NCBI GenBank assembly: GCA_018436095.1
Contig: JAHDMJ010000001.1
Location: forward strand, 62,001-126,000
Reading direction: 5' to 3'
Length of the DNA: 64,000 nt
From: Clostridia bacterium
GTDB taxonomy: Bacteria; Bacillota; Peptococcia; DRI-13; UBA5745
The notes beneath the pieces are model-generated. The model saw only the letters and a program-made list of their open reading frames with translations, made no database searches and had not been told where the DNA came from. Each line of letters begins with the position of its first letter. Position 1 is the stretch's first letter. A program made the position numbers and the translations under genes. Shown here piece after piece: positions 47,330 through 59,707 of the stretch.

Positions 47330-49810
47330 CTACTCTAATATAAAACTGCTTATTAACCCCATTTCCTGTGCCTTTTGCAATAAATCGGAAGTATTCGATA
47401 CCTGGAATTTTTCATGCAGGATACGTATATGGTAATCCACCGCGGCTGTCGTCACTCCCATTTTTTCGCTGATTTCCTGATAGGTGAGGTTTTGAACCAA
47501 ATAACCTACGACTTCCGATTGCCGCGGCGATAATTTTATCGGCCGCACTTTGCTTTGTGAAAACATGCCCGGCGTATGTTTTGACAGTTCCCGAGCTCTC
47601 ATCAACAGCAGATTCACGAAAGCCTTGTCAAGTATTTCTGCGTCATATCCGTACTTTAATCTGTTCAATATTTTTTGCAAAACAGGCAGTATATCGGCGC
47701 CTTGCTTGACGATTGGCATGATAAGCTGTAATTCCTTTGCTTTGATTATCGCAGCAGTAAATATTTCCACAGCCTCTTTCACCCGTTTCAGACGCCACAA
47801 GCAAACTGCCCGCAGGGTAAGGGCCTCAATGTAGTCGGCATTGCGTTTGTAATCCAAGGAAAACTTAACAATCTCCTCAAGCAGTTTTTCAGCCGCCGAT
47901 AATTTGCCTGTTACCACCAGCGCCTTTGCGGTAGTAAGATGCCGGTATACTTTATATAGCTGAATGCTGCGTATTGGATTTTGCCGCTCCAGCCATTTAC
48001 TTGCCGCAGATTCATCCCCGCTGTCAAGCAAAATATTCGTGATGAAAGCATCATAGTTTGACGACAAATAATGGGCCCCCATATGTTCAATCATATCGCC
48101 GATGATTTGAGGCTCAAAGCTTTTACCTTGCATGCGCAGGATTTCAACATGTAGGACATACACACAAAAACGAAGTTCCGGCGATAACACATCGATATTT
48201 TTTATAAGCCTTTCGGCGATAACCTCCGCTTTCGGCAGTTCTCCGCGCTCATAAAGCACACCCGCTTCAATCAACGCCGCCAATACCTTAATGATTGAAC
48301 CCGCCACCGGCTCAAGCTGATTTATAAACTCCGCTATATATTCCGGTAATTCATGGGATATATCAGTATAATCCCTCTGCGCCTTGTGAAAAAAGGGAAA
48401 ATTAATGCTGATCGTAACCATATAGGTTCCTCTTGCCGTTTCGGTCAGCCTATTATGAATACCCTTGAATTGCTTTGGCACATGCCAACTTGAATGTCTG
48501 GGGTCGACAGCCCTTTGAAAAGCCGCAGAAATAGCATCCGACGGGTTGGTCAGCCCTTTTTCCATCTGCTTTTTAAGGATATCGGCCCACATACAGGCTT
48601 CTGAGGCCGGATGCGCTAAAAGTGATATCATGAAGCAATGACCGGAAAGCCTCGGATATTTTTCGATGATAGGAATGGGAACCGCAAGAAATGTCTGCTC
48701 CACGAACCGAATATACTCTGTGACGTCAAGGCCCAGACTGTCATGTTTCTTGCTGGCAGCCCGCGCTATTTCTTCAATAGCGCCGTGATCGCCGCTTTTA
48801 GCAGCCATATCCAGCGTATGCAGCCAGTCGCCATTTTCCCTGTACCAATAAGCTGCCGCTTTATATAGCAGCGGTTTATTTATTTTCTCGTCAAGCTTCA
48901 GCTCCGATTCCAAAAATTCTTTCAACAGTGAATGGAATCGGTAGGTGTTATTGCCGTGCCGGGCCACCAATCCCGTTTTATTGGCCAGCGCAGTTATGAT
49001 ATCCCAAATATCGGCTCGCCCCGTAATAGCTTCGCATAATTCGGGATTCAAAACATCGCAGATAGAGCATTTTTTTAATTCCCCAAAATCCTCCCAATAA
49101 TTAAACACGCAGGCTCTTAAATATTGATTTAGGGTTTTCTTTTTTATTAGGCTCATATAGCCGTCCCTGTTCGACAGGATCATAGCGGTGAGGGCCGCCG
49201 CCCAGCCATCTGTTCCCTTATAAAGCAGATCGGCTTCATGTTTAGAAAGGCGGATACCGTTTTTATCAAACAAAATGCGGATTTCCTCACTGCTAAAACG
49301 CAAATCGTTGATTTGCTTTATTGTGCCTTTGATGATGTTTTCGTTTAACACCTCCGGCGGAGGGTTACGGCTGAGGATTAAAACTGCGGTGGCTGCCGGC
49401 ATTCTGGAACGAATCAAGGGCAGCGCCCTCGCCGCCTCACTATCGCCGAGAAGATGGAAATCGTCTATTACAAAAACCGCTGGCCATTCTTTCAGGTTCT
49501 GCAAAGCACGGGTCATCATTTCCCAGGGCGGGCCGGCAAAGTCATCGGGTATTTCTGCCGACAAGGCCAGGGGAACGCCCCGATAAAAATTCGCAGGCAT
49601 AGAAGAATATTCATCAAGGGAGAACCAAGCAGCCTTTTTGTTGCCTATCCATTGTGCGGCAGCCGTGGTTTTGCCGTAACCGGCCGGAGCGTGGATAAAA
49701 AGGATACTGCGTATCGCTGATTCCGTTATTTGCGCCATCAGCCCCGGACGCTTTATCACTTTTGACGGATTAATAAGCGGGGGCAAAAACTGTTCAATAG
49801 GTTGAGACAT
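47330..49810 (-). CDS. STAND-family LuxR/MalT-type transcriptional activator
   Basis: Large regulator of about 826 residues from MSQPIEQFL (ATG 49810). The N-terminal NTPase has Walker A APAGYGKTTAA and Walker B VFVIDDFHLL; a long helical-repeat (TPR-like) sensor follows. The C-terminal LuxR helix-turn-helix is clear (LSPRQSEVVGYLVQNLTYQEISEKMGVTTAAVDYHIRILHEKF). It is transcribed divergently from the PP2C-led RiPP operon over a 160-bp gap, so it is the most likely transcription factor for that cluster. The ligand is unknown. Confidence 0.88.
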   Translation of the reverse strand: MSQPIEQFLPPLINPSKVIKRPGLMAQITESAIRSILFIHAPAGYGKTTAAAQWIGNKKAAWFSLDEYSSMPANFYRGVPLALSAEIPDDFAGPPWEMMTRALQNLKEWPAVFVIDDFHLLGDSEAARALPLIRSRMPAATAVLILSRNPPPEVLNENIIKGTIKQINDLRFSSEEIRILFDKNGIRLSKHEADLLYKGTDGWAAALTAMILSNRDGYMSLIKKKTLNQYLRACVFNYWEDFGELKKCSICDVLNPELCEAITGRADIWDIITALANKTGLVARHGNNTYRFHSLLKEFLESELKLDEKINKPLLYKAAAYWYRENGDWLHTLDMAAKSGDHGAIEEIARAASKKHDSLGLDVTEYIRFVEQTFLAVPIPIIEKYPRLSGHCFMISLLAHPASEACMWADILKKQMEKGLTNPSDAISAAFQRAVDPRHSSWHVPKQFKGIHNRLTETARGTYMVTISINFPFFHKAQRDYTDISHELPEYIAEFINQLEPVAGSIIKVLAALIEAGVLYERGELPKAEVIAERLIKNIDVLSPELRFCVYVLHVEILRMQGKSFEPQIIGDMIEHMGAHYLSSNYDAFITNILLDSGDESAASKWLERQNPIRSIQLYKVYRHLTTAKALVVTGKLSAAEKLLEEIVKFSLDYKRNADYIEALTLRAVCLWRLKRVKEAVEIFTAAIIKAKELQLIMPIVKQGADILPVLQKILNRLKYGYDAEILDKAFVNLLLMRARELSKHTPGMFSQSKVRPIKLSPRQSEVVGYLVQNLTYQEISEKMGVTTAAVDYHIRILHEKFQVSNTSDLLQKAQEMGLISSFILE

Positions 49811-49972
49811 TATTTGAAATCCCTTCAAACAAAATTTTCTTATTTACCCCTACGTAAACATAGTAGTTGTTAAAATTCTATCATGCTAAAATAAAAAATC
49901 AATTCTGATTTTTATATTCTCATATCACTTTATTTTTTGAAGGTGATTAATGGCGGAATAGGGGGAACAAAA

Positions 49973-52030
49973 GTGAAAATCAGGATGAAACTATTTATAA
50001 CATTTCTGACGCTTAGTCTCGTTTCGCTGCTGCTGTCCACCGCTACCGGACTATATCAGCTTATAAAATCCAAAGCCGACGTAAGCGACGTGTATATTAA
50101 TCAATCGGAACAGCTAATTGAAACCAATATAGAGGTCATGACAGGGTTTAACGCTGACATGGCCGTTGCCCTTGCGCAAAATTATTCAGATATAATCGAC
50201 AACAAATTGCTCTCCGTCACAAAGCAGGTACTTGTGATAGGGGATTATTTGCGCAGCACCTATAAAAACGGCGTGAAAACCATGTCAAGCATGGCCGGCG
50301 GAAATTCCGGCAGGATGATCTATATGGAGCCTGACGTTTCTTTCGACAGCGTAAACGGGGAATTGCAAATCCTACAGTCGGCCCTTGATCTGCTCTATGC
50401 CGCAACTGAATCAGACCCAAACGGAGGAATGTATTACTACGCTTCCGAAAGCGGGTTTGTGATGTACGGCACGGACGTTGCTGATTTTGTCAGCAGGGAT
50501 TTAGACCTGCGCCAAAGAGCATGGTATACCGGGGCAGCCGGGCAATACGGCGTATGCTGGACGCCTATATACACGGACGCGCGCACAGGTGAGTTAAACA
50601 TTACCTGCTCCGCTCCTGTTTTTGATGGCGATGGAAGTATTTTAGGCGTAGTTGCCTGCGACATATTGGCGGAGCCGCTTATCAACACGGTGATGGCTAA
50701 TGATATAGAGATCATTGAGTATGCCTTCATTCTGGATGAGTTCGGCAAGGAATTTGTCAGCTCGGTTCCCGGTAAAACCTTGGCCGATTACATAACCGAT
50801 CAAGGCCAAAGAGATCTTTTAACCCAAAAAATGCTGGCAAGCACAACCAATGCAAATTTGTACAATGAAGATGAAATCATGGCCGGATACACGTTAATAT
50901 CAACGACAAACTGGAAAGTCGGCATTTTAATCGACTATCAAAAGATTATTGCGCCGGCACACCGCGTCGAAGAATTAACCCGCAATTCCAGCGACCGTTT
51001 TCGGCAGTATCTTGACGGCAGGATATCCTCGGCCATACTCGTTTCGCTGACGGTGACAGCACTCATCCTGATCTCGGCATTTCTTGTTTCCCAAAGGGTT
51101 GCCAAATCCATAACAAAGCCGCTGGCGCTGCTTACGGACGGAGCGGGGTATATAAGCGAGGGGAATTTGGAATACCGTCTTGAAATTAAAAGCGGCGATG
51201 AAATTGAGACGCTGGCGGACTCATTTAATACCATGACCCGCAAGCTCCGTGATTATATAGAGAATCTTGCGAAAATCACAGCCGAGAATGAGCGCATATC
51301 CACCGAGCTGAATATTGCCACGCAGATACAAATGGACATGCTTCCCAACATATTCCCCCCCTTCCCCCAGCGCAAGGAATTTGAAATATATGCTGCGATG
51401 CAGCCGGCCAAAGAGATTGGCGGGGATTTTTATGATTTTTTTCTGATCGACGACGACCATTTGGGCATCGTTATTGCGGACGTGTCCGGCAAAAGCATAC
51501 CGGCTGCGCTGTTTATGGTCATAGCCAAAACGCTGATCAACAACCGCACCCGTGCGAAAGAAGCACCGCAAGATGTTTTCGCAAATGTGAACAAGCAGCT
51601 GCGGGAGGGCAATGAAACGGCCATGTTCGTTACCGCCTGGCTGGGGATTTTGGAAATCAGTACAGGGCTAATGACCTTTGTCAATGCGGGGCATAACCCG
51701 CCTCTTCTTAAAAAAGCGGGAGGGACTTATGAGTATTTGAAAACAAAAAAAGGCTTTGTTTTAGGAGGCATGGACGGCCTTTCCTACACACAGATTGAAA
51801 CGCAGCTTGAAAAAAACGATATGCTGTATCTTTACACAGACGGTGTGACCGAGGCCAATAACCCCGCCAGCGAGCTTTACGGCGAAAAGCGCCTGCGAGA
51901 TACGCTAAACTCTTCCCTCGATTTAACGCCGTCGGAGTTACTGCCGAAAATAAAAGCAGATATTGATTCATTTGCGCAGGGAACGCCGCAATTCGATGAT
52001 GTTACCATGCTGGCGATATTAATCAATTAA
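49973..52030 (+). CDS. Membrane Cache-HAMP-PP2C (SpoIIE-type) phosphatase
   Basis: Signal-sensing serine phosphatase of 685 residues. GTG 49973 follows GGGGGAACAAAA; the frame upstream to TTG 49937 is less likely. Order: membrane segment (about 8-28), extracellular dCache-like sensor (about 40-330; RDLDLRQRAWYTGAAG, WTPIYTDARTGELNITCSAPV), second membrane segment, HAMP, coiled coil (ENERISTELNIATQIQMDML), PP2C domain with metal Asp residues in GGDFYDFF, IADVSGKS, LYTDGVTEANN and FDDVTML. It leads an operon with a STAS antagonist and HATPase kinase, and is expected to dephosphorylate the STAS protein on sensing an external ligand. Confidence 0.93.
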   Translation: MKIRMKLFITFLTLSLVSLLLSTATGLYQLIKSKADVSDVYINQSEQLIETNIEVMTGFNADMAVALAQNYSDIIDNKLLSVTKQVLVIGDYLRSTYKNGVKTMSSMAGGNSGRMIYMEPDVSFDSVNGELQILQSALDLLYAATESDPNGGMYYYASESGFVMYGTDVADFVSRDLDLRQRAWYTGAAGQYGVCWTPIYTDARTGELNITCSAPVFDGDGSILGVVACDILAEPLINTVMANDIEIIEYAFILDEFGKEFVSSVPGKTLADYITDQGQRDLLTQKMLASTTNANLYNEDEIMAGYTLISTTNWKVGILIDYQKIIAPAHRVEELTRNSSDRFRQYLDGRISSAILVSLTVTALILISAFLVSQRVAKSITKPLALLTDGAGYISEGNLEYRLEIKSGDEIETLADSFNTMTRKLRDYIENLAKITAENERISTELNIATQIQMDMLPNIFPPFPQRKEFEIYAAMQPAKEIGGDFYDFFLIDDDHLGIVIADVSGKSIPAALFMVIAKTLINNRTRAKEAPQDVFANVNKQLREGNETAMFVTAWLGILEISTGLMTFVNAGHNPPLLKKAGGTYEYLKTKKGFVLGGMDGLSYTQIETQLEKNDMLYLYTDGVTEANNPASELYGEKRLRDTLNSSLDLTPSELLPKIKADIDSFAQGTPQFDDVTMLAILIN

Positions 52031-52060
52031 AGGCTAAGAAATGAAAGGGACGGAACCATT

Positions 52061-52366
52061 ATGGGATTTTCAATTAAAGAAGGCAAGGAAACCTGCGTAA
52101 CCCTTACGGGCAAGCTGGATTTTTCCCTGGCGCCCTTGCTGATGGAGGCTCTGGCCGCCCTCAAGGGTAAAGATATCGGGACCATTGTCTTTGCCTGCAA
52201 GGAACTGACCTACATCTCAAGCGCAGGCATCCGCGCCATTATTTATGCGCAGCAAAAAATAGCTCCCGGTATGACAATCTATATGGAGGATGTAAACGAC
52301 GATATCAAGGATGTGCTGGATATGTGCGGATTGATTGACTTCATTGAGATTCGGGAAACGGAGTGA
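52061..52366 (+). CDS. STAS-domain anti-sigma factor antagonist
   Basis: 101-residue SpoIIAA/RsbV-like protein. The phosphorylatable Ser is in TYISSAGIRAI, the standard position. It is encoded between the PP2C phosphatase (30 bp after) and the HATPase kinase (6 bp before). In the partner-switch scheme the unphosphorylated form binds the kinase and frees its other partner. Confidence 0.93.
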   Translation: MGFSIKEGKETCVTLTGKLDFSLAPLLMEALAALKGKDIGTIVFACKELTYISSAGIRAIIYAQQKIAPGMTIYMEDVNDDIKDVLDMCGLIDFIEIRETE

Positions 52367-52372
52367 GAGGTT

Positions 52373-52783
52373 ATGGAAAAACACAGGCTGGAGGTCACCG
52401 TTGCCATTGAAAATATGGCTGCGGTCATGGCTTTCATTGAAGAACACACCGCACTCATCGGCAACCCGAAGATAGCCTATAATCTGGCGATGATCGTGGA
52501 AGAATTATCATTGAATGTGTTCAATTACGCCTACGATGGACGGCAAGGCAATTTCAGCTTGAGTATTATCAACGATACGGAACAGCGGCAGGTAATGATG
52601 GAGTTTTGCGACAGCGGCAAACCCTATAATCCTTTACTGCTGGGCGAACCCGATGTAAATGTGCCTATCTCGCAGCGCCAGATTGGCGGCCTTGGTATTA
52701 TGCTTGCGAAAAAGCTAACCGATCAGCAGCATTATATCCGTCAAAACGGGCAGAACATTTTAACTGTCGTAAAAAACTATTAG
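52373..52783 (+). CDS. HATPase switch kinase (RsbW/SpoIIAB-like)
   Basis: 136-residue GHKL ATPase. The N box is in IVEELSLNVFNYAYDG, G1 in FCDSGKPYNPL, and the G2 lid in QIGGLGIMLAKKL. These fit a serine kinase that phosphorylates the adjacent STAS protein and sequesters a sigma factor or another target. No sigma factor gene is in the window, so its output partner is not known. Confidence 0.92.
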   Translation: MEKHRLEVTVAIENMAAVMAFIEEHTALIGNPKIAYNLAMIVEELSLNVFNYAYDGRQGNFSLSIINDTEQRQVMMEFCDSGKPYNPLLLGEPDVNVPISQRQIGGLGIMLAKKLTDQQHYIRQNGQNILTVVKNY

Positions 52784-52793
52784 GAGCATTTCC

Positions 52794-53003
52794 ATGGAAG
52801 AAAAGCAGAATATTTTCAGGAAAACCAGTCTCGACAGAATCTCCTCACCGGAGGGCCTGAACGACTATATTAAGGTATCGAGGCCAAGCTTGTGGCTGAT
52901 ACTGGGGGCTATCGCCGTATTGCTGGCGGCGGCTATCTTTTGGGGTTGCACTGCGGAGATTACCCCCGAAGGACTGAGGCCGATTGATTTTCTGTTGGCA
53001 TAA
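52794..53003 (+). CDS. 69-residue remnant or minimal form of NHLM HlyD-like secretion protein
   Basis: The N-terminus (FRKTSLDRISSPEGLNDYIKV) and the single membrane helix (LWLILGAIAVLLAAAIFWG) match the start of NHLM-system HlyD-like secretion proteins, which normally continue into a long periplasmic adaptor. Here only about 18 residues follow the helix, ending LRPIDFLLA, and the next gene begins 18 bp later. The final residues resemble the ending I recall for short versions of this family, so an internal in-frame deletion is possible. An intact reading frame with a normal ribosome-binding site suggests it is still translated. Confidence 0.7.
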   Translation: MEEKQNIFRKTSLDRISSPEGLNDYIKVSRPSLWLILGAIAVLLAAAIFWGCTAEITPEGLRPIDFLLA

Positions 53004-53020
53004 GGCAAGGAGGTTGGCTC

Positions 53021-55168
53021 ATGGCTAAAAAACGGGTAAAAGTACCCGTCGTCATGCAGATGGAGATGCTGGAGTGCGGTGCAGCCTGCCTGGCCATGAT
53101 ACTCGCCTACCACGGCAAATGGCTGCCGCTGGAACGGGTGCGGGAAGACTGCGGCATATCACGGGACGGTTCAAAAGCAAAAAATATTTTAATAGCGGCA
53201 AGGAGTTACGGCCTTATCGCAAAGGGCTATCGCAGTGAAGTCGATGGCATCAAAAACGCAATATTCCCCTGTATTATCCACTGGAATTTTAATCATTTTG
53301 TGGTGCTGAAAGGCTTTTCGGACAAATACGCCTACATCAACGATCCCGCAACCGGTGAAGTAGATGTGCCGATAGAGGTTTTTGACAAATCCTATACCGG
53401 TGTTTATCTGCATTTTGAGAAAACCGATGCTTTCAAGCCCGAGGGTAAGCCCAAGAGCGTTATCCAATTTGCCAAAGCCCGCTTAAAGGGAACCCTTGTA
53501 CCATTTCTCTTTGTGGTACTGACCGGTTTACTCACCGCAGCCATCGGCATCATTACGCCTGCGCTGTCCCGCATGTTTATGGACAGGATTCTCACCGGCC
53601 AAAACCCGGAGTGGCTGGCACCGGTTATTTTCGCTATGGCGGCGCTGGCGGCAGCCTCCATCGTCGTGTCTTTTTTGAACACGCTCTATCTTTTGAAAAT
53701 TCGGGGTAAGCTGGCAATCGTTGCCAACGTCTCTTTCCTATGGCATGTTCTGCGGCTGCCAATGAATTTTTTCTCACAGCGCCTGGCAGGCGACATTGCG
53801 GGGCGGCAGTCGTCCAACGAGGGAATCGCCGAAACACTGATGTCTCAGCTGGCCCCTTTGTTTTTGAATTTTATTTTGATCTTTCTCTATTTTATCATCA
53901 TGCTCAGATACAGTCTTATCCTGACCGCACTGGGCCTGTTTGCCATCCTGGTGAATCTGCTCATGGCCCAGATTATCGCCAAAAAGCGGATCAACATCAT
54001 GCGGGGGCAGATGCGCCATATGGGCAAGTTGTCCGGTCTGACCGTCTGCGACATAGAGATGATCGAAACCATCAAGTCCGCCGGTGCGGAAAATGGCTTT
54101 TTTGAGCAGTGGTCGGGCACCCAGGCTGCGGTGAACACAGCGAAGATAGCCTTTAACAAAGCAAACCTTTACTTAGGCGCAATACCCGGACTGATCTCTT
54201 CCCTCACGTCCATCGCTATATTGGCCACGGGTGTGTATTTGATTATGCAGGGAAGTTTTACCGCAGGTATGCTGCTGGCCTTTCAAAGCTATTTAGCCTC
54301 CTTTGCCGCACCGGCCCAATCGCTGATCGAGGCTTCGCAAAGCTTGCAGCAAATGGGCATTTTAATGGAGCGCATTGAGGACGTGATGAACTATGCGCCT
54401 GATGTGATACTTCCGGAGATGCCCGGTAATCTGGATGACTTCGACAAACTGTACGGCAATATTGAAATGAAAGATATTACCTTCGGCTATAGCCAGCTGG
54501 AACCACCTCTGATCGAAGATTTCAACATGACACTGAAAGCCGGGCAAAGCGTGGCCCTCGTCGGGTCAAGCGGCTGCGGCAAATCCACGCTGGCAAAGCT
54601 GATTTCAGGACTGTATAAACCCTGGTCCGGGGAGATCCTCTTTGACGGAAAGCCCTATAAGGATATCGACCGGAATACGTTCACAAGTTCCTTAGCCGTC
54701 GTTGACCAGGACATTGTGATCTTTGAGGATACCGTATCGGCTAACATCAAGCTGTGGGACGAATCGATTGAGGATTTTGAAGCTATCCTGGCCTGTAGAG
54801 ATGCAGGGCTGCATCAAGATATACTACAGCGTCCCGAGGGATATAAGCACAAGCTGGCGGAGGGCGGCAAGAATTTTTCCGGCGGACAGCGTCAGCGCAT
54901 TGAGATCGCCCGCTCCCTGGCAGCCGACCCCTCCATCCTCATCATGGATGAGGCCACAAGTGCGCTGGACGCCAAGACGGAGTTTGACGTTATGAACGCC
55001 ATTAGGCAGCGGGGCATCACCTGTGTGATTATTGCCCACCGCCTATCCACTATCCGGGACTGTGACGAGATCATCGTGCTGGACAAGGGTAAAGTCGTGG
55101 AACGAGGCAGCCATGACGAACTTGCAGGCAAAGGCGGCTATTACACCCGCCTGGTCACAACGGAATAA
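53021..55168 (+). CDS. NHLM-type peptidase-containing ABC transporter (C39 leader peptidase)
   Basis: Bifunctional exporter of 715 residues that cleaves double-glycine leaders and exports the core. The C39 peptidase occupies residues 1-130 with Q13, C19 (MLECGAACLAM), H92 (WNFNHFVVLKGF) and D108 (YINDPATG). A six-helix membrane domain follows, then the ATPase: Walker A GSSGCGKST, signature FSGGQRQRIEIARS, Walker B ILIMDEATSALD. It belongs to the transporter group linked with nitrile-hydratase- and Nif11-leader peptides, which agrees with the Nif11-type precursors downstream. AAGGAGG precedes ATG 53021. Confidence 0.95.
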   Translation: MAKKRVKVPVVMQMEMLECGAACLAMILAYHGKWLPLERVREDCGISRDGSKAKNILIAARSYGLIAKGYRSEVDGIKNAIFPCIIHWNFNHFVVLKGFSDKYAYINDPATGEVDVPIEVFDKSYTGVYLHFEKTDAFKPEGKPKSVIQFAKARLKGTLVPFLFVVLTGLLTAAIGIITPALSRMFMDRILTGQNPEWLAPVIFAMAALAAASIVVSFLNTLYLLKIRGKLAIVANVSFLWHVLRLPMNFFSQRLAGDIAGRQSSNEGIAETLMSQLAPLFLNFILIFLYFIIMLRYSLILTALGLFAILVNLLMAQIIAKKRINIMRGQMRHMGKLSGLTVCDIEMIETIKSAGAENGFFEQWSGTQAAVNTAKIAFNKANLYLGAIPGLISSLTSIAILATGVYLIMQGSFTAGMLLAFQSYLASFAAPAQSLIEASQSLQQMGILMERIEDVMNYAPDVILPEMPGNLDDFDKLYGNIEMKDITFGYSQLEPPLIEDFNMTLKAGQSVALVGSSGCGKSTLAKLISGLYKPWSGEILFDGKPYKDIDRNTFTSSLAVVDQDIVIFEDTVSANIKLWDESIEDFEAILACRDAGLHQDILQRPEGYKHKLAEGGKNFSGGQRQRIEIARSLAADPSILIMDEATSALDAKTEFDVMNAIRQRGITCVIIAHRLSTIRDCDEIIVLDKGKVVERGSHDELAGKGGYYTRLVTTE

Positions 55169-55179
55169 GGGGTGAGCCG

Positions 55180-57363
55180 ATGGGATTATATAGCGACCAA
55201 ATTGCCGCAAGGATAGAAAACGACTTGGACGCATTTGAGGAATCTGTTGTGGGACTGGCTCACGCAGTCATGGGCTCCAGGAAGCCGGCGGCAGGCTTTG
55301 TATCCGACAGGGAAACTGCCAAAAACGCCATTGAGGAAATCCTTAAATATTTCCATGTCGCCTGCGCCGAGCTGCCGGCAAATATCAAGGACATTGACGA
55401 CCAGCTTGAATTTTTCCTGCATCCTTTGGGTATCCAGCGCCGCCCTGTTGAACTGACCGGATCATGGTATAAGGACGGTTATGGTCCGCTGCTGGGCCAG
55501 ACAAAAGACGGCCGGGTGGTTGCGCTGCTGCCTGGTAAAATGTCGGGCTATACATTTTTCGATGATGAACAGGGCAGACAAGTCAAGGTGACCCAGGGGA
55601 ACGCTTCACGAATCGGCGCAAACGCATACTGCTTTTATAACCCTTTGCCCGCCAAAAAACTGAACATCGCAGATTTGCTTTATTTTATGGCCCGCTCGCT
55701 GACTGCCGCCGATTATGTGATGGCTGCCGCCGTGACCTTGGCGGTAACCCTGCTGGGGATACTGACGCCTTATGCCTACAAACAGCTTTTTGGCAATGTT
55801 GTTGCATCGGGCAAGCTTCTTCAGCTTATTTCCATATCGACTTTGCTTGTAGGCGCCACCGTTTCAACCACGCTGATCAATATGACCAAATCACTGATTA
55901 TGGCGAAAATCAACACCAAAATAGAAATAGCGACCCAGAGCGCAACGATGGGGCGGCTCTTGTCGCTGCCGGCCTCTTTTTTTAAGGATTATAGTTCCGG
56001 TGAGGTGGCCCAAAGGCTTGAACGCCTGAACTCGCTATGCGGCATATTGCTCCAGGTGATTCTGGGGACGGGGCTGACCTCATTGTTTTCTCTCATCTAC
56101 ATAGGTCAAATAGCCTTGCTCACCCCAACCCTGGCCATTCCGGCCCTGGTTATTATTACCGTGAATATCGCAGTGACGTTGGCATACACCCTGGTATCCA
56201 TGAAAACCCAAAAGAAAATAATGGAGGGCGAGGGCAAGCTATCCGGACTGGTTTACTCCCTGTTTACGGGTATGCAGAAGATAAAGCTGGCCGGTGCGGA
56301 ACGCAGGGCCTTCACTAAATGGGCGAAGCTGTATACGCCAAACGCGGCGCTGACCTATTCCCCGCCCTGGCTGGTCCGTATCGGCCCCGTTATAGCCAGT
56401 GCAGTTTCGATGGCGGGGACGGTGATCCTGTTCGCCATCGCCGGAACGTCGCATGTTTCGGTGTCCGATTACATGGCCTTTAACGTGTCCTACGGCATGG
56501 TCTCCGGCATGATCATGTCGCTGACCGGCATTGCCGTCACGGTATCCGGCATCAAACCCATCCTCGACATGGCAAAACCGCTGATGACCAGCGAGCCGGA
56601 GGTTGCCGCAGGTAAAAAAGTCTTCACCCGCCTTACCGGCTCCATTGAAATCAACAACCTGTCTTTCCGTTATGCGGAAGATATGCCTCTGGTGCTAAAC
56701 GATTTATCGCTGAAAATCAAAAAGGGTCAATATGTGGCTATCGTAGGTCCATCGGGCTGTGGAAAATCCACGTTGCTGCGGTTGCTGCTGGGCTTTGAAA
56801 CACCGGAAAAGGGTGCGGTTTATTACGACAATCAGGATATGAAATCCATTGATTTGAAATCCCTGCGCAAAAATATCGGCTGCGTTATCCAAAACGGCAA
56901 ACTGATGTCCGGCAGTATTTTTCAAAACATCACCGTATCTGCACCGTGGCTGACCCAGGAGCAGGCCTGGGAAGCGGCAGAAATAGCGGGCATAGCTGAC
57001 GACATCCGCACCATGCCTATGGGGATGCACACCATGATATCCGAGGGCGGCGGCGGTATATCGGGAGGCCAACGCCAGCGATTACTGATTGCCCGGGCCA
57101 TTGCGCCAAAGCCCAAGGTTCTCATGCTCGATGAGGCCACAAGCGCCTTAGACAACATTACCCAGAAGCATGTGTCCCAGTCGCTGGACAAGCTCAAGTG
57201 CACCCGTATTGTTATTGCCCACCGGCTGTCCACCATACGCCGCTGCCACAGGATCATCATGCTGGAGAAGGGCAGTATCGCCGAGGAGGGCACCTATGAG
57301 GAGCTGATGGCTCAAAACGGCAAATTTGCGCAATTGGTGGAACGGCAGAGGCTGGAGGGGTAG
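55180..57363 (+). CDS. NHLM-type ABC transporter, ATP-binding/permease, no active peptidase
   Basis: Second exporter half, 727 residues. The N-terminal 160 residues form a soluble domain without the C39 catalytic Cys; membrane helices lie between about 170 and 440, and the ATPase has Walker A GPSGCGKST, signature ISGGQRQRLLIARA and Walker B VLMLDEATSALD. Such proteins usually accompany a peptidase-containing NHLM partner as a heterodimer. The gene starts 11 bp after its partner and ends 76 bp before the first precursor gene. Confidence 0.93.
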   Translation: MGLYSDQIAARIENDLDAFEESVVGLAHAVMGSRKPAAGFVSDRETAKNAIEEILKYFHVACAELPANIKDIDDQLEFFLHPLGIQRRPVELTGSWYKDGYGPLLGQTKDGRVVALLPGKMSGYTFFDDEQGRQVKVTQGNASRIGANAYCFYNPLPAKKLNIADLLYFMARSLTAADYVMAAAVTLAVTLLGILTPYAYKQLFGNVVASGKLLQLISISTLLVGATVSTTLINMTKSLIMAKINTKIEIATQSATMGRLLSLPASFFKDYSSGEVAQRLERLNSLCGILLQVILGTGLTSLFSLIYIGQIALLTPTLAIPALVIITVNIAVTLAYTLVSMKTQKKIMEGEGKLSGLVYSLFTGMQKIKLAGAERRAFTKWAKLYTPNAALTYSPPWLVRIGPVIASAVSMAGTVILFAIAGTSHVSVSDYMAFNVSYGMVSGMIMSLTGIAVTVSGIKPILDMAKPLMTSEPEVAAGKKVFTRLTGSIEINNLSFRYAEDMPLVLNDLSLKIKKGQYVAIVGPSGCGKSTLLRLLLGFETPEKGAVYYDNQDMKSIDLKSLRKNIGCVIQNGKLMSGSIFQNITVSAPWLTQEQAWEAAEIAGIADDIRTMPMGMHTMISEGGGGISGGQRQRLLIARAIAPKPKVLMLDEATSALDNITQKHVSQSLDKLKCTRIVIAHRLSTIRRCHRIIMLEKGSIAEEGTYEELMAQNGKFAQLVERQRLEG

Positions 57364-57439
57364 GGTAGCATGGAATGGGCAAACACCGGCTTCCGGCGGG
57401 ATTGCAAATAAAAACTTTATGATAAGGAGGGAACAAGCC

Positions 57440-57805
57440 ATGGAAAATATCAGGAAATTCTACGAAGCACTGGCCAAGAACGAGGCCATGCAGGAGCGGG
57501 CGAAAGCATTGAACAACAACAAACCTGGCGAAGAAGAGGAAGCCTTTGCTGCAATTGTTGCATTTGCAGCGAAAGAGGGCTATTCGTTTACAGCGGCGGA
57601 ACTTACTGAGTACAACAAAGCGCAAAATAAGGAACTCAGCGACGACGAGCTTGAAGGGGTGGCAGGCGGAGCTACTTGCGCCTGTGTGTTTGTGGGCAGC
57701 GGCGGTAATGGCCTTATGTGCGCTTGCGTTGTTGGCGGGGTTGGGGATAACAAAGCCAAAAAAACAGTCTGCGTCTGCCCTATAGGCGGCGGCGGTACCG
57801 ATTGA
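57440..57805 (+). CDS. RiPP precursor 1: Nif11-type leader with Cys-X-Cys/Gly-rich core
   Basis: 121 residues. Residues 1-77 are a Nif11-like leader: an amphipathic start (NIRKFYEALAKNEAMQERAK), an EGYSFTAAELTEY segment, and the end ELSDDELEGVAGG with the double glycine at 76-77. The 44-residue core contains three CxC motifs (C80/C82, C94/C96, C111/C113), each followed by a Gly-rich stretch (FVGSGGNG, VGGVGD, PIGGGGTD). No other Cys is present. A strong AAGGAGGG site precedes ATG 57440. The C39 transporter should cut after GG77; the downstream radical SAM enzyme is the expected modifier. The structure of the product is unknown. Confidence 0.92.
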   Translation: MENIRKFYEALAKNEAMQERAKALNNNKPGEEEEAFAAIVAFAAKEGYSFTAAELTEYNKAQNKELSDDELEGVAGGATCACVFVGSGGNGLMCACVVGGVGDNKAKKTVCVCPIGGGGTD

Positions 57806-57861
57806 CGCAAGCTGATTGCCGGCCCAATTGATTATTAATAATAAGGAATAAGGAGAAATTT

Positions 57862-58287
57862 ATGAACGAAAACATCAAGAATTTCTATGCTGCCTTATCC
57901 AAGGACGAGGCAATGAAAAGCAGGGCCCAGGCTCTGAATGAGCAATACAATAACCCGCAGACGGAGGAAGACGCTGTTGCTGAGGGCATTGCCGCTTTCG
58001 CAAAATCCGAAGGCTTTGCCTTTACGGCGGCGGAGTTTACCGAGTATAACAAAGCGCAAAGCAAGGAGCTGAGCGACGAAGAGCTTGAAGCGGTGGCAGG
58101 CGGAGCCTCATGTATCTGCCCTGTGGGCGGCGGCGGCACTAGCGGGCTTCTTAACTGCATCTGCGCAATAGTTGGTTACGGCGAACGCACGGCTGATTGC
58201 ACCTGTAATCCGGGGGGCGTCGGCTCAAGCGCCAATGCGCAAAAAAACGTCTGCTTTTGTTTTGTAGGCGGTTCTGGCAAAGATTAA
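57862..58287 (+). CDS. RiPP precursor 2: Nif11-type leader with four Cys-X-Cys units
   Basis: 141 residues, a paralogue of precursor 1. The leader ends ELSDEELEAVAGG with glycines at 80-81. The 60-residue core has four CxC motifs (C84/86, C99/101, C113/115, C131/133) spaced 15, 14 and 18 residues, each followed by Gly-rich segments (PVGGGGTSG, IVGYGE, PGGVGSS, FVGGSGKD). Units 2-4 align with the three units of precursor 1, so one repeat was gained or lost. It is followed after 22 bp by the radical SAM gene. Confidence 0.92.
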   Translation: MNENIKNFYAALSKDEAMKSRAQALNEQYNNPQTEEDAVAEGIAAFAKSEGFAFTAAEFTEYNKAQSKELSDEELEAVAGGASCICPVGGGGTSGLLNCICAIVGYGERTADCTCNPGGVGSSANAQKNVCFCFVGGSGKD

Positions 58288-58309
58288 ATAAAAACGGAGG
58301 ATTCCTTTC

Positions 58310-59707
58310 GTGTATTATAAATTGCATGAAAACTTTGGGCTGCGGGGATGGGACGGAGCGCCTTATGCGCTCCGCCATTTTCCTTCCGGCATGACCGAAT
58401 TTTTGAATGAAACACAGTTTCAGGCACTGTCATTCTGTGACGGCGGCTTCGACTGCGAAAGCATATTACTTTCGTCTGCCCACAAAAAAGTCATCGAGCG
58501 TGCGGCGAATAACGGAGTAATTACGCCATGCGAAAAAGGTGCAGAGCTTAGCCAGCGGCAAAAGTACAGGCTTTTCCCCTGCCAATTCATCGCCATCGCC
58601 CACTGGTCGATTACAGGGAAATGCAACATGCGCTGCCGCCATTGCTTTTTGTCGGCGCCCCAGGCTAAGTACGGCGAAATATCCGCTGCCGCCGCCCTTG
58701 ATATAGTAAAGCAGCTGGCCGACGCAGGTATCGCCAGGATCAACCTGACCGGCGGCGAACCCCTTGTGCGCAACGACCTTTGGGAAATTATCGATGCTCT
58801 TAGAGCCAACGATATTGTTATTAACCAAATCTATACCAACGGTATGCTGGTAAATGAAAGCCTGCTGGAAGGGCTTGAAAAACGCAAGATCAAGCCGTCT
58901 TTTTCACTAAGCTTTGACGGCGTGGGCTGGCACGACTGGCTGCGGGGCATAGACGGTGCGGAGCAGATTGCCGTGAACGCCATAAAACTGCTGCATTCAC
59001 GGGGCTATGACGTGGGCGTGGAATCGGCTTTTCACCGCAACAGTGTGGGGACGATGGCCGATACTATGCAGCTTCTGGCGGAGCTGGGTGTAAGCTCGTG
59101 GAAAACTAACCCCGCATCCGGTTCCGGCAACTGGCTGAACGAATCCCGCGACCTCGATCTTACCGCCGAAGAATTGTACGACGCTTACTTGATGCTTATC
59201 GACAAATATTTAGAGGCGGGTTCGCCTATCGGTATACAACTTGGCGGATTCTTCATGTGCAAAAAGGGCAGCTACGAATATTGCTGCCCGGCTAAAAAGT
59301 CGTACAAGAATGCAGAAAAGCGCCTTAAAGAGCCTTTATGCATGAGTGCGAGAAATATGATGTATATATCGGCGGATGCAAGACTGCTGCCCTGTATCCC
59401 TCTTTCGGGCTTACCTATACAAGACAAGTTCCCAAGCCTTGAGGCTATGACCATTGTCGAAGCGATGAGGGATTCGCTTTATTTGGAACGTATATCGGCG
59501 CCGGTCAGCAAATTATTCGATAATCAGGCGGAATGCGCCGCCTGCGAACATCGGCTTTACTGCAATGGCGGCTGCCGGGCTGCCGCATTAATGGAAAACG
59601 GCGGAACCGATTATTTCGGTGTTGACAGCTGGACCTGCCTTTTCTTCAAAGGTGGTTATGAGGAAAAAATCGCAGAGATAGCTGCAAGATTCATAGGCAG
59701 CTTATGA
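58310..59707 (+). CDS. Radical SAM/SPASM peptide maturase
   Basis: 465 residues, GTG start with CGGAGGA upstream. Residues 1-95 may be a PqqD-like leader-recognition domain. The radical SAM cluster motif is C105-NMR-C109-RH-C112, with NLTGGEPLVR for SAM binding. The C-terminal SPASM domain is complete: a Cys pair around SADARLLPC, then C409-AA-C412-x5-C418-NGG-C422 and a final C443, for two auxiliary iron-sulfur clusters. It directly follows both precursors, so it very likely modifies their CxC cores, by thioether or other Cys-centred chemistry; the exact reaction is not predictable. Confidence 0.94.
   Translation: MYYKLHENFGLRGWDGAPYALRHFPSGMTEFLNETQFQALSFCDGGFDCESILLSSAHKKVIERAANNGVITPCEKGAELSQRQKYRLFPCQFIAIAHWSITGKCNMRCRHCFLSAPQAKYGEISAAAALDIVKQLADAGIARINLTGGEPLVRNDLWEIIDALRANDIVINQIYTNGMLVNESLLEGLEKRKIKPSFSLSFDGVGWHDWLRGIDGAEQIAVNAIKLLHSRGYDVGVESAFHRNSVGTMADTMQLLAELGVSSWKTNPASGSGNWLNESRDLDLTAEELYDAYLMLIDKYLEAGSPIGIQLGGFFMCKKGSYEYCCPAKKSYKNAEKRLKEPLCMSARNMMYISADARLLPCIPLSGLPIQDKFPSLEAMTIVEAMRDSLYLERISAPVSKLFDNQAECAACEHRLYCNGGCRAAALMENGGTDYFGVDSWTCLFFKGGYEEKIAEIAARFIGSL

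Follow-up and report, generated by a model that had tools for sequence, protein, structure and literature searches.

In the 64,000-nucleotide stretch of DNA analysed here (the window), which comes from a gut-type bacterium, the genes for two short peptides, each repeating the unit Cys-x-Cys-x-x-x-Gly-x-Gly, lie directly before that of a radical enzyme. Judged from the sequence, the neighbouring radical enzyme and exporter probably cross-link the peptides and secrete them. We see about an even chance that the locus is a two-peptide RiPP system in which each unit would be closed into nested thioether hairpins, with an inner link from C3 to G7 and usually an outer link from C1 to G9 (numbered within the nine-residue unit). 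The CxCX3GXG core and its clade of maturases are real and apparently undescribed, and they belong within the known kind of Nif11/NHLM radical SAM RiPPs and form no new category. No description of either was found in the open-access literature, a scope outside which subscription work such as the radical SAM RiPP atlases falls.

Nine co-directional genes occupy 49937-59707 on the plus strand, with gaps of about 6-76 bases. The series begins with a dCache-HAMP-SpoIIE phosphatase (49937-52030; PF07228, PF02743 and PF00672), the probable sensor of a partner-switch module, and continues with a STAS anti-anti-sigma protein (52061-52366; TIGR00377, 59.4 bits, cut-off 53.45) and an RsbW-like HATPase (52373-52783; PF13581, 2e-16), probably the anti-sigma partner and co-directional with the cluster. 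They are followed by a very short HlyD-like protein of the NHLM type, comprising only the membrane-anchor start (52794-53003; TIGR03794, 25 bits over profile positions 1-42 of 421), by the NHLM ABC1 exporter with its N-terminal C39 double-glycine peptidase (53021-55168; TIGR03796, 916.4 bits, cut-off 853.3; PF03412, 5.6e-34) and by the ABC2 export permease/ATPase (55180-57363; TIGR03797, 733.8 bits, cut-off 709.4), so the NHLM transporters reported upstream in the first-pass annotation are confirmed. The two precursor genes and the radical SAM/SPASM gene complete the order, and all three have good ribosome-binding sites, AAGGAGGGAACAAGCC-ATG and AAGGAGAAATTT-ATG for the precursors and GGAGGATTCCTTTC-GTG for the enzyme. 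No LanM was present among the cluster genes scanned (47330-59707), which sets the locus apart from Nif11-leader class II lanthipeptides.

Precursor A (57440-57805, plus strand, 121 aa; PF07862) has a leader ending in GVAGG and a 44-residue core with three units, A1 CACVFVGSG (57677-57703), A2 CACVVGGVG (57719-57745) and A3 CVCPIGGGG (57770-57796). Precursor B (57862-58287, plus strand, 141 aa) has a leader ending in AVAGG and a 60-residue core with four units on the same strand, B1 CICPVGGGG (58111-58137), B2 CICAIVGYG (58156-58182), B3 CTCNPGGVG (58198-58224) and B4 CFCFVGGSG (58252-58278); the cores read ATCACVFVGSGGNGLMCACVVGGVGDNKAKKTVCVCPIGGGGTD and ASCICPVGGGGTSGLLNCICAIVGYGERTADCTCNPGGVGSSANAQKNVCFCFVGGSGKD. 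Both open reading frames exceed the curated cut-off for Nif11 leaders (TIGR03798, 43.6 and 37.2 bits against 32.3), in agreement with the adjacent double-glycine Nif11 precursors described earlier. The seven units share a mean DNA identity of 60% and use three Gly codons, indicating that they are not fresh copies and are old relative to each other. A precursor search of 46 genomes of the window's class gave full-length matches only in the window's own genome, with weaker Nif11-like matches in G020, G036 and G014, and a search of viral contigs gave no match.

The cores had been described as placing every Cys in a CxC pair followed by a Gly-rich segment. The first part stands, as 6/6 cysteines of core A and 8/8 of core B (14/14 overall) are in such pairs, and the second can be made more precise, since all seven pairs extend to C-x-C-x-x-x-G-x-G. 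Random reordering of all residues but Cys in the window cores gave a mean of 1.9 Gly at +4 from the second Cys, where 7/7 are seen, and reached this number in 0/20,000 shuffles; for Gly at +6 (also 7/7, shuffled mean 1.9) it did so in 1/20,000. Across 12 lineages Gly follows at +4 in 38/39 CxC units (shuffled mean 9.2, maximum 19) and at +6, position 9, in 29/39 (shuffled mean 9.3), counts in which units and paralogues are not phylogenetically independent and most relatives are metagenome-assembled genomes. The single exception at +4, in G499 (CFCVAGSGG), has Ser, and none of the 39 has Ala. In six lineages chosen post hoc (the window, G500, G560, G637, G826 and G594) both glycines are present in 23/23 units while the remaining positions vary.

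The relatives were obtained by scanning GTDB genomes with five maturases, which gave about 40 full-length sequences, and Nif11 precursors near these were picked with a profile covering the leader only, making the choice of precursors independent of their cores. The maturases of Desulfotruncus (48% identical to that of the window) and Desulfosporosinus (47%) accompany single-Cys cores, in which 8/8 Cys keep CX3G, as do 17/22 in the Corio-type relatives with single Cys. CxC was therefore dropped as the defining motif, CX3G being the more widely shared one. The Desulfotruncus core AIGACLLVGVQVGMIGFCAGAGFVL contains no Ser, Thr, Asp or Glu, which leaves it without lanthionine and Asp/Glu-type acceptors. 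Exact CxCX3GXG cores were found in G500 and G560; G500 has the gene set of the window cluster with enzyme and precursor swapped (short HlyD, ABC1, ABC2, maturase, precursor). CxCX3G cores also occur in Atopobiaceae genomes assembled from rabbit gut metagenomes. Within Atopobiaceae, a single locus in each of the genomes G431 and G432 holds a CxC precursor next to two tandem, closely related maturases. Some ten more CxCX3G precursors are scattered elsewhere in each genome, those inspected lying among unrelated genes, and G432 has two further, more distant maturases (34 and 30% identical) beside other precursors. Gly at +6 is commoner where C1 is present (29/39 against 12/46 without it, counts that are again not phylogenetically independent), and most Atopobiaceae units have A, V, S or H at position 9 instead of Gly.

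Searching 398 genomes of the Atopobiaceae class with a CxC-precursor profile that took in the core columns revealed new cores in G637, G826, G594, G709, G499, G708, G791 and G838. Since the core columns were part of the profile, these cores are not independent evidence; the neighbouring maturases are. In G637, G826, G594 and G708 a maturase adjoins the precursor (403-463 bits against the window enzyme), and within the stretch fetched around the precursors of G709, G499, G791 and G838 there was none. The NHLM ABC pair is also present in G500 and in G637, where the locus lies on a 3.63 Mb contig. Mapped on a maturase tree of 68 rows, the CX3G core type requires four changes (shuffled labels: mean 17.3, minimum 10), which is support and not a strict probability, since loci that are adjacent or nearly identical do not carry independent labels. 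The recurrence of the CxCX3G(XG) spacing in about a dozen lineages suggests what may be a family of small sulphur-stapled hairpin peptides.

The maturase (58310-59707, plus strand, 465 aa, GTG start; PF04055) is the complete radical SAM/SPASM enzyme that had been recognised directly 3' of the precursors. Its radical SAM domain has C105, C109 and C112, and its SPASM cysteines are at 344, 362, 409, 412, 418, 422 and 443; the CX3CX2C motif and all seven SPASM Cys are invariant across 29 aligned maturases, from which three iron-sulphur clusters are predicted. The predicted structure (pLDDT 94) matches the folds of SuiB, SkfB and CteB, and those of anSMEcpe and ChlB over the catalytic part, with the epimerase EpeE also among the matches; the nearest solved protein by sequence is the sactisynthase SkfB (5.6e-12). 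Residues 1-93, modelled alone (pLDDT 94), form a winged-helix-like domain with an RRE-like fold. Its ten best Foldseek matches all bear an RRE (lasso-peptide, SuiB and heterocyclase systems) at modest significance (best E 0.014), and VIA-align gave Z 5.5-6.9, values that unrelated chains equalled. The window enzyme reached none of the NCBIfam maturase families and missed the cut-offs of the curated sactipeptide maturases (StsB 85 of 625 bits, AlbA 52 of 850 bits), and PADLOC matches were limited to a generic viperin-like radical SAM domain.

In the proposed pathway the N-terminal RRE-like domain would bind the Nif11 leader, and the radical SAM/SPASM core would remove an alpha-hydrogen at Gly7 in every C1-x-C3-x-x-x-G7-x-G9 unit, joining this residue to the sulphur of C3 in a five-residue thioether ring of the sactionine type. 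In most lineages C1 would then be joined to G9 as an outer ring, turning each unit into a tiny hairpin with two nested staples, and the two window peptides could have as many as 3 x 2 and 4 x 2 links. The C39 peptidase of ABC1 would cleave after GG, and the ABC1/ABC2 pair would export the product; the usual role of such clusters is an antibacterial or signalling peptide. Positions 1, 3, 7 and 9 are symmetric about position 5, giving the pairs 1-9 and 3-7. Such nesting would be expected of a beta-hairpin, where every second residue points to the same face, and known sactipeptides nest in the same sense. Relatives without C1 keep G7, and G9 is commoner with C1, which argues for C3-G7 as the core reaction and C1-G9 as an added outer link. 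As Atopobiaceae usually lack G9, the outer link is held with less confidence, and in that family an outer staple would depend on other acceptors, if it forms at all.

It seems fairly unlikely that the thioether is limited to C3-G7, with the first Cys left free or used for disulphides, either inside one unit or peptide or from one to another. The frequent CX3G of relatives without the first Cys and the variable position 9 of Atopobiaceae are in line with such a product, but C1 is kept in every window unit and Gly9 in most of the 39, and the two tandem Atopobiaceae maturases could split two reactions between them. Parallel links from each Cys to the residue four positions on (C1 to residue 5 and C3 to G7), with a spacing like that of ranthipeptides, are quite improbable: freyrasin, reportedly CX3D, has equal i+4 spacing and position 5 is often Val or Ile, but this position is variable (entropy 3.2 bits), no Asp or Glu stands at +4, and Gly has no beta-carbon. 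With Gly in 7/7 window units at +4 and a PapB score of 57 of 340 bits, the locus also falls outside the freyrasin type of ranthipeptide, defined by Asp/Glu at +4 and a PapB-family enzyme.

The glycines could also have a structural role, CX3G being a small-xxx-small helix-packing motif or the pair resembling a class II-like two-peptide bacteriocin, with the cysteines in disulphides and the radical SAM enzyme acting elsewhere. The adjoining precursors, the Gly-rich, hydrophobic cores and a sub-threshold Bacteriocin_IIc match would suit such peptides. However, Ala or Ser should be acceptable in a packing motif, whereas Gly is near-exclusive at +4, and several cores (G594, G826) are polar, so we regard this as improbable. 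The first-pass annotation had considered the two Cys of a pair too close for Cys-to-alpha-carbon loops within a unit and had turned to links between units, metal binding or another Cys chemistry. This objection is not supported, as glycines at 7 and 9 give a 1-3-7-9 spacing that suits such loops, and links between units or metal binding would leave the near-invariant Gly at +4 unexplained. Metal binding by the CxC pairs, with the enzyme catalysing something else, for instance epimerisation or C-C linkage, is in our opinion very unlikely: CxC can bind metals in general, and SuiB (C-C linkage) and EpeE are among the fold matches, but Gly cannot be epimerised and the Cys-less cores belong to a separate subclade.

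Nested thioether hairpins would have their closest precedents among the sactipeptides. Ruminococcin C1, a proven sactipeptide, has Cys3-x-Cys5 with both Cys linked to alpha-carbons (Cys3-Asn16 and Cys5-Ala12; PMC8172795). The earlier view that CxC-only cores are unlike known classes thus holds in that cores and enzyme score below the cut-off of every characterised maturase or core family, but not for the CxC motif itself. The SPASM type of maturase is common to the window system and to ruminococcin C1, thurincin H and subtilosin A; the hairpins of these peptides are longer, one or two in number, and use varied acceptors, whereas the window peptides repeat short nine-residue units with Gly as the putative acceptor behind a Nif11 leader. 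Streptosactin (GggA/GggB) resembles our proposal in its several small rings per peptide and its Gly acceptor, but its rings are spaced i+3 and unnested, and that system is not known to have a CxC, a Nif11 leader or an NHLM exporter. Its Cys31-Gly34 link makes it, among the published cases covered, the only demonstrated use of Gly as acceptor, at i+3 spacing (PMC8172795); the streptosactin-type Cys-x-x-Gly/Ser does not describe the window units, where the conserved offset is +4, not +3. Ranthipeptides (freyrasin/PapB, thermocellin/CteB) have repeated Cys-acceptor units as in the window, and CteB is a near fold match of the maturase. Their acceptors are Asp, Glu or Thr at the beta or gamma carbon, as in the Cys-Asp links of freyrasin (PMC11002830), in contrast to the window units, which have none of these at +4. 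The Nif11 leader, double-glycine end and NHLM ABC1/ABC2 are shared with the systems of Haft 2010 (PMC2887384), prochlorosins among them; these systems use lanthionine or azole enzymes, in contrast to the SPASM radical SAM enzyme of the window. With TIGR04103 (nif11-class radical SAM maturase 3) the broad superfamily and leader class are in common, but the window enzyme scores 97 bits against a cut-off of 725.

We tentatively suggest, while considering it somewhat short of an even chance, that the group could be a distinct RiPP class of wide but thin spread, in which CxCX3GXG would give a nested pair of Cys-Gly alpha-thioethers in tandem, up to eight links in a 60-residue peptide, and in which one enzyme pair of Atopobiaceae would serve ten or more genome-scattered substrates. 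The remark on CxC-only cores has in any case become a precise, testable rule, C-x-C-x-x-x-G-x-G together with a clade of enzymes that tracks it. Should the links prove to be Cys-Gly alpha-thioethers, the motif would offer a short unit with which stapled hairpins could be programmed, as positions 2, 4, 5, 6 and 8 vary freely. The dispersed Atopobiaceae substrates resemble those of the prochlorosins, where one promiscuous enzyme has many scattered Nif11 substrates; two enzymes with at least ten substrates would be their radical SAM counterpart, and would let substrate tolerance be read from a natural library.

Some observations concern the surroundings of the clusters. The partner-switch module (SpoIIE phosphatase, STAS and RsbW-like ATPase; 49937-52783) lies directly upstream of the peptide cluster in the same direction, which suggests stress- or ligand-controlled expression. 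A MalT-like LuxR-type regulator (47330-49828, minus strand) adjoins the window cluster, and a STAND/MalT-looking protein lies near the Desulfotruncus cluster (L011:8966-11452). The window HlyD partner has 69 aa and is essentially a membrane anchor; a full partner was not reached in the window (TIGR03794, 25 bits against a cut-off of 156.2), the short gap upstream of ABC1 showed no frameshifted remainder, and the counterpart in G500 (L160) is also short (183 aa, 43.8 bits).

Further variety was met among the relatives of the maturase. The closest by sequence (53%), in a Clostridiales Family XIII metagenome-assembled genome (L010), adjoins a core without CX3G; both genes have in-frame stops (L010:2900-4627, TAG within the precursor leader and TGA in the maturase), and the cluster looks decayed, or the stops are assembly errors. 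In Desulfotruncus arcticus (L011:384-7368) a LanM with Ser/Thr-containing Nif11 precursors adjoins the radical SAM enzyme with its set of CX3G precursors, which contain almost no Ser or Thr, in a single cluster of two putative chemistries and one leader type. In the sister clades from rumen bacteria the cores are rich in Cys but of quite another kind, and Gly at +4 is not enriched (9/175, expected 11.5). The idea that an i+4 rule holds throughout the family, with Asp replacing Gly as acceptor in the rumen sister clade, was dropped, as Asp was found in 28/175 cases against 19.7 expected (p 0.03) and other offsets were stronger. Loci of such rumen-type bacteria (L023, L024, L030, L163 and L164) have up to ten Nif11 precursors each, with a conserved CKDTFxDKENCWYNDGCD-type core beside a sister-clade maturase, and no published description of this core was found. 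In Synergistaceae (L016 and L021) maturases of the same family lie beside three Nif11 precursors almost free of Cys, and since these wider members serve cores with few or no Cys, the family may also act on other residues and not be bound to thioether chemistry. At L009:2122-9029 a Nif11 precursor (core CSSVCGEICGLFLGHWMGRQ) is followed by three tandem maturases of the window-enzyme family and a YcaO-looking protein, and two maturases accompany a similar core, CASVCTEVCGMFLGHYIGRQ, in a metagenome-assembled genome labelled Micromonosporaceae (L033).
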